Both the position numbers and the translations under genes were made by a program. Shown here in pieces: positions 16,638-61,953 of a DNA stretch of 64,000 bases (its first letter is position 1; each line of letters opens with the position of its first letter). This DNA comes from Alphaproteobacteria bacterium (lineage in GTDB: Bacteria > Pseudomonadota > Alphaproteobacteria > Micavibrionales > Micavibrionaceae), in the NCBI GenBank assembly GCA_030427385.1, contig JAUHWR010000001.1, positions 1,240,001 through 1,304,000 on the forward strand, in the 5' to 3' direction. The notes under the pieces were generated by a model, which worked only from the letters and a program-made list of their open reading frames with translations, did no database searches and was not told the DNA's origin.

Positions 16638-17609
16638 ATGACCAAACAGAAAACACAGACGCACTCCGTCAAATATGATAATAACCTTTATCTTTCCCAA
16701 CTTTGCGGCCCGCGGAATGATCACATTAAAAAGCTGGAAAAGCTGCTCGATGTTCAAATTGCGATTAAAGGGAATCAATTGGATATTACCGGTCACAAGA
16801 ATGATGTCGCCAGCGCAACCCAAATTTTAGATGCCCTTTGGGTGAAGTTGGAAAATGGCGATAATATTGAAATGGCGGATGTTGAAGCCGCCATCCGCTT
16901 CATGAACGGTACAGAAACTGGAGATGGAAATCAGCAAACTTATTCTGATGATAAAAGCTTTATTAAAACGAAGAAAAAAACCATTGAACCACGCTCTCCG
17001 TTGCAAGCGGAATATATTCAATCCATGCGTGATTATGAAATGATTTTTGGTCTGGGCCCCGCGGGGACAGGTAAAACATATCTTGCGGTTGCGATGGGTA
17101 TTGAAATGTACCTGAATGGTGAAGTTGAACGTTTGATTTTTACACGTCCGGCTGTAGAAGCAGGAGAAAATCTTGGCTTCCTGCCTGGTGATATGAAGGA
17201 AAAGGTTGACCCGTATTTACGCCCGATTTATGACGCACTTCATGATATGATGCCACTTGATAAAGTTGATATTAAGTTAGAAAACGGTGATTTAGAAGTC
17301 GCCCCCCTTGCGTTTATGCGCGGGCGCACACTGCGGAATGCCTTTGTCATTTTGGATGAAGCACAAAATACGACTCCTGCACAAATGAAAATGTTTCTAA
17401 CGCGAATGGGCGAAGGATCACACGTGGTCGTCACCGGCGATCCCACGCAAACAGATCTTCCCAAACATCAAACTTCCGGCCTGACCGAAGCGATGGCTTA
17501 TTTAAGAGATGTTAACGAAATTAAGTTTATCATGTTCAGTGAAAAGGACGTTGTCCGCCATCACCTAGTTGCAAAGATTATTGAAGCTTATGAACACAGA
17601 AAAACCTGA
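16638..17609 (+). CDS. phoH: PhoH-like ATPase
   Basis: The 323-residue protein has an N-terminal KH-like segment (about 15-75) and a PhoH P-loop ATPase domain. Walker A is GPAGTGKTYLAVA and Walker B is FVILDEAQNTT. Family motifs FTRPAVEAGENLGFLPGD and VVTGDPTQTDLP are intact. In most proteobacteria it is paired with ybeY and linked to 16S rRNA maturation or stress; its precise activity is not settled. Its end overlaps the ybeY start region by 20 bp (taking ATG 17590 for ybeY), which suggests translational coupling. Confidence 0.95.
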   Translation: MTKQKTQTHSVKYDNNLYLSQLCGPRNDHIKKLEKLLDVQIAIKGNQLDITGHKNDVASATQILDALWVKLENGDNIEMADVEAAIRFMNGTETGDGNQQTYSDDKSFIKTKKKTIEPRSPLQAEYIQSMRDYEMIFGLGPAGTGKTYLAVAMGIEMYLNGEVERLIFTRPAVEAGENLGFLPGDMKEKVDPYLRPIYDALHDMMPLDKVDIKLENGDLEVAPLAFMRGRTLRNAFVILDEAQNTTPAQMKMFLTRMGEGSHVVVTGDPTQTDLPKHQTSGLTEAMAYLRDVNEIKFIMFSEKDVVRHHLVAKIIEAYEHRKT

Positions 17610-41107: not shown

Positions 41108-41416
41108 TTATTCTTCAATGACAATAATTTCATTCTCTTCAACATACCCCAGCATTGTACGCGCACGCTCCTTGAGTAAATCCGCATCTAGCGTTTCCGG
41201 GCGAAGCTTTACAACTTTATCAGTCATTAGCCTCTCTCTTTCCTGCAATACAGCTAAATCCGCGGAAAGCTTGATATTTTCTGATTTTACTGCCTGAAGA
41301 TAGGGGTAGCTTCTTGGTCCATAAAATAAATGATAAGTAAAATAAAGGCACAGGATCATTCCAAACAGCAACAGCCTGTTTTCCTTCAAATCGAACTCTG
41401 AAAAAAATGATCTCAT
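41108..41416 (-). CDS. ftsB: Septum formation initiator FtsB/DivIC family
   Basis: The 102-residue bitopic protein has a short cytoplasmic N-terminus, one membrane helix (about 15-35, LLLFGMILCLYFTYHLFYG) and a periplasmic coiled coil (about 40-75, ENIKLSADLAVLQERERLM) ending in the conserved E-R-x-R-x-x-L-G-Y-V block (KERARTMLGYVEENE). It belongs to the divisome FtsQLB complex. It lies upstream of pdhA, 153 bp away, and downstream of yqgE by 53 bp; eno-ftsB proximity is a common alphaproteobacterial and enterobacterial arrangement. Confidence 0.9.
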   Translation of the reverse strand: MRSFFSEFDLKENRLLLFGMILCLYFTYHLFYGPRSYPYLQAVKSENIKLSADLAVLQERERLMTDKVVKLRPETLDADLLKERARTMLGYVEENEIIVIEE

Positions 41417-41469
41417 ACTTAATAGAGAATCATAGATGATTCGGTCTCGTCAAGAGTTATCCACAAAAA

Positions 41470-48754: not shown

Positions 48755-50389
48755 ATGTACGACCCCATTCGAAGCGACCGTGAAGCCATGCATTATGATG
48801 TAGTTATTGTTGGTGCGGGCCCTGCCGGCTTATCTTGCGCGATTCGTTTGAAACAACTAAAACCGGATTTATCTGTTTGCATCCTTGAAAAGGGATCAGA
48901 AGTTGGAGCACATTTACTATCCGGCGCGGCATTTGAAACACGCGCATTGGATGAGCTTATTCCCGATTGGAAAGAAAAAGGAGCGCCCGTAACTATCGAG
49001 GCAAAAGATGATCATTTTATATTTATGACATCAAAGAAATCATTTCGCCTTCCCACGCCGCCCCAAATGAAAAATCATGGCAATTATATCATCTCCTTAG
49101 GGGAGCTTTGTCGCTGGCTGGCGGAGCAAGCCGAAGCTCTAGAGGTTGAAATTTTCTCAGGATTTGCCGCCGCCGAAATTCTTTATAATCAAGATAAAGC
49201 CGTAATAGGCGTGGCAACCGGGGATATGGGCATTAACAAAAATGGTGAAAAGACCGATGCCTTCGAGCCAGGCGTGGAGCTCCATGCCAAACAAACTATT
49301 TTTGCAGAAGGATGCCATGGTTCTTTAACTAAGGCGCTGATTGAAACTTATAACTTGCGTGATCATTCGGATCCTCAAACCTATGCCCTTGGTGTGAAAG
49401 AGATTTGGGAAATAAAAAAAGAAAACCATAGATCAGGGAAAATTTTGCACTCTATCGGTTGGCCTATGGACAATAAAACCTATGGTGGATCATGGCTGTA
49501 TCATTGGCGCGAAAACATGGTGTCAATCGGTTATGTTACAGCACTGGACTATAAAAATCCTTATCTATCACCTTATGAGGAAATGCAACGTTTTAAATTA
49601 CATCCTGATATTAGTAAAATCCTGGAGGGCGGCAAACGAATTTCCTATGGAGCAAGGGCCCTTGTGGAGGGAGGCTTGCAATCTCTGCCAAGGTTAACCT
49701 TCCCGGGGGGGCTTTTAATTGGCGACACAGCAGGCTTCTTAAATGTAGCTAAAATCAAAGGCAACCACACTGCCATGAAAACAGGTATGCTTGCTGCCGA
49801 TACTTTGGCTTCACGCTTAGATATTAAGACGGATTACGGGTTGGAATTTCACCAATATGAAGAACGTTTTAAAAAGTCCTGGGTTTATAAGGAATTATAT
49901 AAAGTTCGCAATATCCGCCCAGGTTTTCAAAAAGGCTTATGGTTTGGATTGCTCCACGCTGCTTTTCAGACGTTAGGCGGATGGATGCTTCCTTACACAT
50001 TAAAAAATCATGCCGATTATTCCCAAACAGGAAAAGCGGCGGATTATGAGCCTATCACCTATCCAAAACCGGACGGTAAACTGACATTTGATCGCCTTAC
50101 CAGTGTACAATTAACGAATACATTTCATAGCGAAGACCAGCCTTCTCATCTAAAGTTACGTGATGCGGATATACCTGTTGCTGTAAATTTACCTGATTTT
50201 GCCGGACCTTCCACACGTTATTGCCCAGCCGCAGTTTACGAATTTGTAGAAGAAGGCGAAGAAACAAAATTCGTCATAAACGCCCAGAATTGTATACACT
50301 GTAAGACATGCGATATTAAAGATCCGAGCCAAAATATTATCTGGACGGTTCCCGAAGGCGGTGGCGGCCCTAAATATGGTAGTATGTAA
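48755..50389 (+). CDS. Electron transfer flavoprotein-ubiquinone oxidoreductase
   Basis: The 544-residue flavoprotein passes electrons from ETF (fatty and amino acid oxidation) to ubiquinone. The FAD motif is VIVGAGPAGLSCAIRL, a ubiquinone/membrane-binding region lies around 250-320, and the 4Fe-4S domain at the C-terminus has RYCPAAVYEF and NCIHCKTCDIKDPSQN with four cysteines. The ending GGGGPKYGSM is typical of ETF-QO. No etfAB genes are in this window. It is divergent from the UDG gene (89 bp) and followed by the TPR gene after 43 bp. Confidence 0.96.
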   Translation: MYDPIRSDREAMHYDVVIVGAGPAGLSCAIRLKQLKPDLSVCILEKGSEVGAHLLSGAAFETRALDELIPDWKEKGAPVTIEAKDDHFIFMTSKKSFRLPTPPQMKNHGNYIISLGELCRWLAEQAEALEVEIFSGFAAAEILYNQDKAVIGVATGDMGINKNGEKTDAFEPGVELHAKQTIFAEGCHGSLTKALIETYNLRDHSDPQTYALGVKEIWEIKKENHRSGKILHSIGWPMDNKTYGGSWLYHWRENMVSIGYVTALDYKNPYLSPYEEMQRFKLHPDISKILEGGKRISYGARALVEGGLQSLPRLTFPGGLLIGDTAGFLNVAKIKGNHTAMKTGMLAADTLASRLDIKTDYGLEFHQYEERFKKSWVYKELYKVRNIRPGFQKGLWFGLLHAAFQTLGGWMLPYTLKNHADYSQTGKAADYEPITYPKPDGKLTFDRLTSVQLTNTFHSEDQPSHLKLRDADIPVAVNLPDFAGPSTRYCPAAVYEFVEEGEETKFVINAQNCIHCKTCDIKDPSQNIIWTVPEGGGGPKYGSM

Positions 50390-60850: not shown

Positions 60851-61396
60851 TTATCCTATTCTTATTAGAGTATCGCTCACGAATTCATATCCGGGAACGA
60901 ATAGATTCTTTGGTGCGGGGCCCTTACGGATACGTCCCGATGTATCATAATGAGATCCGTGACAAGGGCAGAACCATCCCCCGAAATCACCATGTTGATC
61001 CGTTGGCTTTTGTCCAGAAGGAACACAGCCAAGGTGAGTACAAATTCCAACCATCACCAGCCATTCATCTTTCTGAACACGGTCAGCATCTGTTTGAGGA
61101 TCTCTCAATTCAGTCACATCAACCTCTTTGGCGGCTTCAATTTCTTTTGCTGTACGGCGGCGTATAAAAACCGGCTTACCGCGCCACATTGCTGTAATGG
61201 ACTGCCCAACCTCAATCGGTGATAAATCCACCTCGGTTGACGCCATGGCACGCGCATCCGCACCGGGATTCATCGAACTGATAAATGGCCAGGCAACAGA
61301 GCCAGCCCCGACAGCACCGAACATTCCGGCCGTTAAATATAAGAAGTCTCGGCGACCTTCGCCCGCTTCGTTTTTTGTATCATTAGATGAGGTCAT
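60851..61396 (-). CDS. petA: Rieske iron-sulfur subunit of the bc1 complex
   Basis: The 181-residue protein has a twin-arginine type leader ([19 protein letters not shown]) that serves as a single N-terminal anchor. The 2Fe-2S domain has C119-T-H121-L-G-C124 and C143-P-C145-H146-G: C119, H121, C143 and H146 bind the cluster, and C124 and C145 form the disulfide. It accepts the first electron from ubiquinol. It is the first gene of petABC. Confidence 0.97.
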
Positions 61397-61420: not shown

Positions 61421-61450
61421 AGTATGACGTTGATATAATAGATTTATCAA
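61421..61450 (-). promoter_or_regulatory. Possible promoter of petABC
   Basis: On the minus strand TTGATA (61445-61450) and CATACT (61421-61426) are 18 bp apart, 25 bp upstream of the petA ATG. On the plus strand a perfect TATAAT (61434-61439) lies 64 bp upstream of trmL, but lacks a good -35. The divergent control regions therefore overlap. Confidence 0.35.
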
Positions 61451-61503
61451 GCATGCACTATAAGTTTTTTTAAAAAATCTTTCAATATAAGGAATAAAAA
61501 AAT

Positions 61504-61953
61504 CTGACATTACACTTAGCGCTTTATCAGCCTGACATTCCGCAAAATGTTGGGGCCGCGATTCGGCTCACCGCTTGCCTAGATTTCACCCTTCATATCA
61601 TCGAGCCTTGCGCGTTTCCGTGGAAAGAAAGTGAGTTTCGCCGCACCGCCATGGATTACAGTAAGTTGAGTCGTATGGAAAGACACACGTCATGGACGAC
61701 ATTCAAAGACAAAACAACAGATCAAAGAAAAATCCTCATGACCACGAAGGGCGCAACGCCGCTATATGATTTTAAATTTCAACCCAATGATATTTTATTG
61801 ATGGGGCGCGAAAGCGCCGGCGTTCCGGAAGACGTCCATAATACAGTAGATGCCCGCATTTATATTCCCATGCACGGCACGGCAAGATCCTTAAATATCG
61901 TCAATGCCGCCGCGATTGCGTGCGGAGAGGCGATGCGGCAAGTGGATTTATAG
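61504..61953 (+). CDS. trmL: tRNA (cytidine(34)-2'-O)-methyltransferase TrmL, apparent CTG start
   Basis: The 149-residue SPOUT methyltransferase modifies the wobble base of tRNA-Leu. Conserved sequence starts almost at once (LALYQPDIPQNVGAAIRLTA), followed by PCAFPWKESEFRRTAMDY, DILLMGRESAGVPEDV and SLNIVNAAAIACGEAM. The frame has a TAA at 61495-61497, and between it and the conserved block there is no ATG, GTG or TTG. CTG at 61504 has AAGGA ten bases upstream and gives the expected N-terminus. Starting at the ATG 61651 would delete the first third of the fold. The stop lies 1 bp from the convergent orf119 stop. Confidence 0.85.
   Translation: MTLHLALYQPDIPQNVGAAIRLTACLDFTLHIIEPCAFPWKESEFRRTAMDYSKLSRMERHTSWTTFKDKTTDQRKILMTTKGATPLYDFKFQPNDILLMGRESAGVPEDVHNTVDARIYIPMHGTARSLNIVNAAAIACGEAMRQVDL

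Follow-up and report, generated by a model that had tools for sequence, protein, structure and literature searches.

Near the right end of the window, by which we mean the whole 64,000-nucleotide stretch of a Micavibrionaceae genome analyzed here, a trmL gene (61504–61953, + strand; 149 residues and the stop codon TAG, identified by Pfam, NCBIfam and PDB matches and counted from the start proposed below) lies divergently from the gene for the Rieske subunit of the cytochrome bc1 complex (60851–61396, − strand; Pfam UCR_Fe-S_N and Rieske). The Rieske subunit gene likewise adjoins trmL on a contig of the congener, the one genome (G001, contig CAKZKV010000212.1) that together with our own makes up the two-genome genus set. 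The trmL reading frame runs uninterrupted from 61498 up to its TAG (61951–61953) and is bounded on its 5′ side by an in-frame TAA (61495–61497, +), which stands two codons before the CTG at 61504–61506 (+) that we propose as the start codon. The codons 3′ of this TAA read AAA AAT CTG (61504) ACA TTA CAC TTA GCG CTT TAT CAG CCT GAC ATT CCG, and a putative Shine–Dalgarno sequence, TAAGGA (61488–61493, +), precedes the CTG by 10 nt, a spacing of 7 nt if counted from the end that a complete TAAGGAGGT would have. Farther upstream are a predicted frame of six codons, ATG to TAA, in register with trmL (61453–61473, +), and an extended −10-like site, TGATATAAT (61431–61439, +; exact TGNTATAAT), which is a weak candidate for the trmL promoter. 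Within the gene, the first in-frame ATG encodes Met50 (61651–61653, +).

The identity of the product is supported at several levels. Read from the CTG, it matches the Pfam family SpoU_methylase (PF00588) over residues 3–140 with 116.3 bits, against a cut-off of 29.7, and the TrmL structure 1j85 in the PDB with an E value of 4.7e-30. Its best NCBIfam model is that of TrmL (TIGR00185), whose equivalog cut-off of 190.6 exceeds the 121.4 bits obtained; because each of six relatives from the Alphaproteobacteria that were scored, among them the congener, likewise matches this model below 190.6 (116.2–138.6 bits), the shortfall is a property of the protein in this clade and is not caused by the start codon. 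Judged by homology, the enzyme would have the exact activity of TrmL and would methylate position 34 of tRNA. Asn35, Arg41, Glu124, Ser150 and Asn152 of TrmH are named as essential, with Arg41 catalytic, in PMC5372735; the window protein contains N15, R21, E103, S129 and N131, whose spacings of 6, 26 and 2 equal those of the TrmH residues in our own mapping, and Asn15 and Arg21 would by this spacing correspond to Asn35 and Arg41. The gene is the single strong match in its genome (2,190,495 bases in three contigs, rated 100% complete, with 2.13 Mb in one contig) and has no internal stop. An exact-pattern search of viral contigs returned no copy of the locus, and a plasmid search none beyond a 58-base piece in Tistrella.

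The first-pass annotation had placed the conserved TrmL N-terminus directly after the in-frame TAA, with the CTG as its only plausible initiator, and had warned that a standard start search would settle on ATG 61651 and lose 49 residues; reading of the sequence and its frame bears out each of these points. The first in-frame ATG, GTG or TTG past the TAA is indeed ATG 61651. Five in-frame near-cognate codons precede it (CTG 61504, ATT 61537, ATT 61561, ATC 61597 and ATC 61600), among which CTG 61504 is the only one between the TAA and the QPDIPQN motif. The upstream in-frame ATG at 61453 is separated from trmL by two stop codons, TAA 61471 and TAA 61495, and the + strand contains no ATG, GTG or TTG in any frame between 61454 and 61546; a nearby start therefore cannot be restored by one miscounted base in the poly-A tract. 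We considered whether slippage in this tract might hide a normal start and rejected the idea as unlikely, since ATG 61453 could be reached only with two compensating changes around the two TAAs.

What precedes the CTG is a longer Shine–Dalgarno match than is usual in this genome. The AAGGA that had been pointed out ten bases upstream is present at 61489–61493 and extends to the six-nucleotide TAAGGA, which is complementary to the anti-Shine–Dalgarno end GGATCACCTCCTT found in the same genome in one copy and a 16S-like context; a longer pattern with GGCT ahead of GGATCACCTCCTT had no match there. TAAGGA exceeds the match at any of 42 hand-picked genes of the window, 26 of which have none of at least 4 nt, with 4 nt in 10 and 5 nt in 6. 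Across 464 kb of the genome, matches of at least 6 nt precede 17 of 365 chosen starts and none of at least 4 nt precedes 235, figures that become 39 and 51 of 365, respectively, on a more generous count that lets each gene use the best among as many as 15 candidate starts. A 6-nt match is thus uncommon but not rare in this genome. It accompanies 12 of the 1421 CTG trinucleotides on both strands of the window, CTG 61504 included, and is reached by 0.425% of 20,000 shuffles of the intergenic region. The predicted RNA fold pairs most of the element (unpaired probabilities of 0.94, 0.35, 0.21, 0.09, 0.06 and 0.24 for its six bases), through a weak hairpin of UCUUU with AAGGA that does no better than shuffled sequences (z of 0.23, 1.02 and −0.16). 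We therefore rejected a regulatory hairpin over the Shine–Dalgarno sequence, its predicted stability being no greater than that of the shuffles, and still count the pairing against efficient initiation. As for the promoter, no convincing one emerged, which likewise counts against the CTG start; the −10-like site at 61431 is compatible with chance: the motif matches five times in the window against 4.79 expected, it arises in 342 of 20,000 shuffles of the AT-rich intergenic region, and a sigma-70 scan gave no + strand site in the region upstream of trmL.

Could translation instead begin at ATG 61651, the first standard codon in frame, or at one of the internal near-cognate codons, to yield a shortened protein? 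Such a protein, begun at 61651, still matches SpoU_methylase, at 71.6 bits. No Shine–Dalgarno match of at least 4 nt precedes this ATG, however, and the missing segment would take with it Asn15 and Arg21, equivalent by spacing to TrmH Asn35 and the catalytic Arg41. It is moreover the best conserved part of trmL: codons 2–49 retain 43 of 48 residues of the congener (pN 0.086, pS 0.95, the latter saturated), compared with 64 of 98 for codons 50–147 (pN 0.246, pS 0.70), figures that span the time since the two lineages split, most of it possibly before the ATG was lost. As none of the distinct relatives surveyed (including the best 80 of 584 candidates, see below) relies on a late start like 61651 either, we regard this scenario as very improbable. 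It counts against the CTG start, on the other hand, that the 49 codons ahead of Met50 have only a weak coding signal, with a dicodon score of +4.8. In a dicodon screen, itself a weak instrument, 14 candidates emerged from 432 open reading frames, and the stretch in trmL is the longest of them, at 51 codons, but ranks seventh by score; when single codons were used to look through 464 kb for extended coding runs ahead of the first start, no candidate appeared and trmL was missed as well.

Comparison with relatives places the CTG in an evolutionary frame. The congener trmL, 73% identical to that of the window, begins ATG TCT CTT CAT CTT GCC where the window has CTG ACA TTA CAC TTA GCG, so that its ATG aligns exactly with the proposed start. 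We further surveyed 130 loci, namely 50 from relatives, our own included, and the best 80 of 584 genome–contig candidates, which reduce to 118 when loci identical over the first 420 aligned bases are counted once; two fragmentary matches (G052 and G031) were left out. Among the matches listed, the named relatives comprise Micavibrio sp. together with further metagenome assemblies from the Alphaproteobacteria. When a standard start was sought from codon −14 to codon +4 in this survey, with its best 80 of 584, an ATG was found near the N-terminus in 107 of the 118 loci and only GTG or TTG in another 10, the window being the one locus with neither. Between the congener ATG and these 117 standard starts, no non-standard codon is seen to be kept among relatives. 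The first-pass annotation had taken an ATG at or near 61504 in relatives as evidence against a CTG start; that ATG is found in the congener, precisely at the aligned codon, so that the objection holds in part. It shows the CTG to be confined either to this lineage or to this assembly, and mutation and error must still be weighed.

An error of assembly or base calling, with a standard start in the true genome and the CTG a product of one wrong or missing base, draws on several of these observations. The congener ATG is preceded by a C, such that a single lost or changed base yields CTG; a long A run adjoins the site; and the other 117 of 118 distinct loci (again including the best 80 of 584) have a standard start. 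Against it, no upstream start lies within reach of a frame slip without two compensating changes, the assembly is long and complete (2.13 Mb in one contig, 100%), and the error must by chance have struck the start of a gene whose Shine–Dalgarno match is among the longer ones (17 of 365). Nor is another start lost elsewhere in the window: of 51 genes set against their congener counterparts, 50 have a standard start, trmL being the sole exception. This comparison began with 62 pairs, nine of them unscored because of a contig edge or a late alignment start, and of the 53 scored, two rows that represent antisense frames (16638–16823 and 48796–48990) were set aside; it is a lenient one, since an ATG, GTG or TTG was accepted as far as 14 codons beyond the point where the alignment begins. 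The 50 standard starts argue against general damage to start codons, and on the same count we rejected a genome-wide habit of non-standard starts. Taking both sides together, we consider an error unlikely.

The same window holds a separate feature that the congener keeps in similar form. Upstream of a DivIC-family gene (41108–41416, − strand), at 41427–41465, there is a palindrome, GAATCATNNATGATTC, with two GANTC sites, occurring once in the window against 0.00 expected, and also TGTGGATAA, for which 0.57 occurrences are expected in the window. These features resemble, respectively, paired methylation sites of the CcrM type and a DnaA box.

If the CTG is real, it may have arisen by recent mutation and largely shut trmL off, leaving too little protein and a gene at the beginning of its decay. 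CUG initiates poorly: PMC11497404 gives it 0.024% of bacterial starts and 0.86% of the yield of AUG, from which it follows that trmL expression could be negligible, and also that one genuine CTG start in a genome of this size would be unsurprising. TrmL is dispensable in Escherichia coli, a disruptant strain of which is described in PMC5372735, and the CTG is not common to the congener. The frame is otherwise intact, however: neither a stop codon nor a frameshift interrupts it, every motif residue is kept, and it is headed by a strong Shine–Dalgarno sequence. Over the whole gene, pN (0.194) is far below pS (0.78, saturated) relative to the congener. We hold silencing to be somewhat less likely even than an assembly error.

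The reading that we favor, with a probability of roughly 0.6, is that trmL is an intact gene with a genuine, weak and lineage-specific start at CTG 61504. It is favored because a 6-nt Shine–Dalgarno match stands before this codon where most sampled starts have none of at least 4 nt, because the gene is single-copy and free of internal stops, with its motif residues and N-terminus conserved, and because no other near-cognate codon precedes the motif. The apparent non-standard start of infC in this genome, described below, also speaks for it. The earlier suggestion had offered a choice between a CTG start and a mutation or sequencing error; these observations tilt it toward the former, with the latter two keeping the smaller share. 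Mechanistically, the 30S subunit would be placed by TAAGGA, at good spacing and within an A-rich leader, whereupon the initiator tRNA, despite weak pairing of its CAU anticodon at the first position of CUG, would begin the full-length, 149-residue TrmL with fMet. From the sequence, we infer use of this codon at a low rate, with initiation probably far below that at an ATG. The ancestral codon would have been the ATG that the congener retains, turned into CTG in this lineage either by substitution or by a short deletion joining the preceding C to TG. In the MAFFT alignment a gap of two bases falls immediately ahead of the TG in the start codon, and the sequences upstream of trmL align poorly between the window and the congener; the data do not decide between the two possible origins.

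The initiator tRNA of this genome has a CAU anticodon and an anticodon stem of A29-U41, G30-C40 and G31-C39. At this gene (G000:C1:467746-467777), A29-U41 replaces the first of three conserved G-C pairs. The corresponding AGGCTCATAACCT arm occurs in all 16 matching genomes, our own included, among 38 searched with a pattern that allowed G-C there; the remaining 22 of the 38, the congener included, gave no match whatever. We rejected a changed initiator tRNA as the cause of the CTG: A29-U41 is found in all 16 matching genomes, and as a trait of the clade it cannot explain a single gene.

The surroundings of the tRNA gene are of separate interest. A 39-base exact copy of its 3′ end lies 10.93 kb away on the same strand (region G000:C1:456800-467800; L204 1300-12268), and the span between them encodes a tyrosine integrase (PF00589 and an arm domain), a DnaG-like protein with a CHC2 zinc finger, an HNH protein and an AAA_25 ATPase, together with a 1174-residue KAP NTPase with weak PADLOC matches to PifA and QatA. 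The arrangement resembles that of an island which has inserted at the gene for the initiator tRNA and which may carry defense genes.

Another possibility is that the CTG is a regulated start repressed by IF3, by analogy with infC and Streptomyces sigR, such that the TrmL level would follow IF3 activity. IF3 represses non-standard starts, the GTC of sigR being a documented case (PMC5472188), and infC of our own genome seems to start at ATC behind a strong Shine–Dalgarno sequence. That gene (L132, G000:C1:56837) has no standard codon at its usual N-terminus; its start is likely the ATC after TTTAGGAG, and the next ATG follows eight codons later without a Shine–Dalgarno sequence. Conserved regulation is nonetheless not seen for trmL, the congener having ATG, unlike sigR with GTC in 32 of 34 species (PMC5472188). 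IF3 control has no support from conservation because the single genus relative has ATG, and we judge it improbable; it overlaps the CTG start favored above, being the same start with an added function. A broader version, in which the CTG is a selected translational brake, with low trmL expression tied to IF3 and wobble 2′-O-methylation of tRNA-Leu following the state of the initiation machinery, is speculative and likewise improbable; as part of it, start-codon discrimination may also differ in this clade by way of an initiator stem with A29-U41 rather than G-C.

The case is a clean one: gene-finding software that accepts just ATG, GTG and TTG would begin 49 residues late and cost a conserved enzyme its catalytic N-terminus. 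If the CTG is confirmed, trmL would offer a natural chromosomal CTG start with a close ATG ancestor, in which the cost of the CTG and its offset by the Shine–Dalgarno sequence are directly testable; it would change little in the knowledge of TrmL itself.

Several known systems frame the case. At the protein level, the closest is Haemophilus influenzae HI0766 (TrmL/YibK tRNA (cytidine(34)-2′-O)-methyltransferase, PDB 1j85), whose residues 2–148 align with residues 3–147 of the window protein and whose motif residues are kept; the two differ in the start codon, and the window protein has one extra residue before the position aligned with Met1 of HI0766. Among the literature matches listed, none concerns a CTG start in trmL. 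The rare CUG starts treated in PMC11497404 share with trmL a CTG in start position, an ordinary initiator tRNA and a low expected yield; they come from in vitro complexes or from frequencies in the references of that paper, whereas the trmL CTG start is proposed from sequence and comparison. infC, which starts with ATT in E. coli and ATC in Streptomyces (PMC5472188) and seemingly with ATC in our own genome, similarly encodes a conserved protein whose true start is not ATG, GTG or TTG and is served by a good Shine–Dalgarno sequence; its starts are autoregulated and widely shared, in contrast to the trmL CTG, which is absent from the congener and 117 other distinct loci (including the best 80 of 584). 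sigR of Streptomyces likewise combines a non-standard start, GTC, with a strong Shine–Dalgarno sequence and was missed by gene finders (PMC5472188), and there the codon recurs in those 32 of 34 species with a regulatory role, whereas the trmL CTG is known from one genome. CTG is thus a rare but known kind of bacterial start, to which trmL would add one more example.
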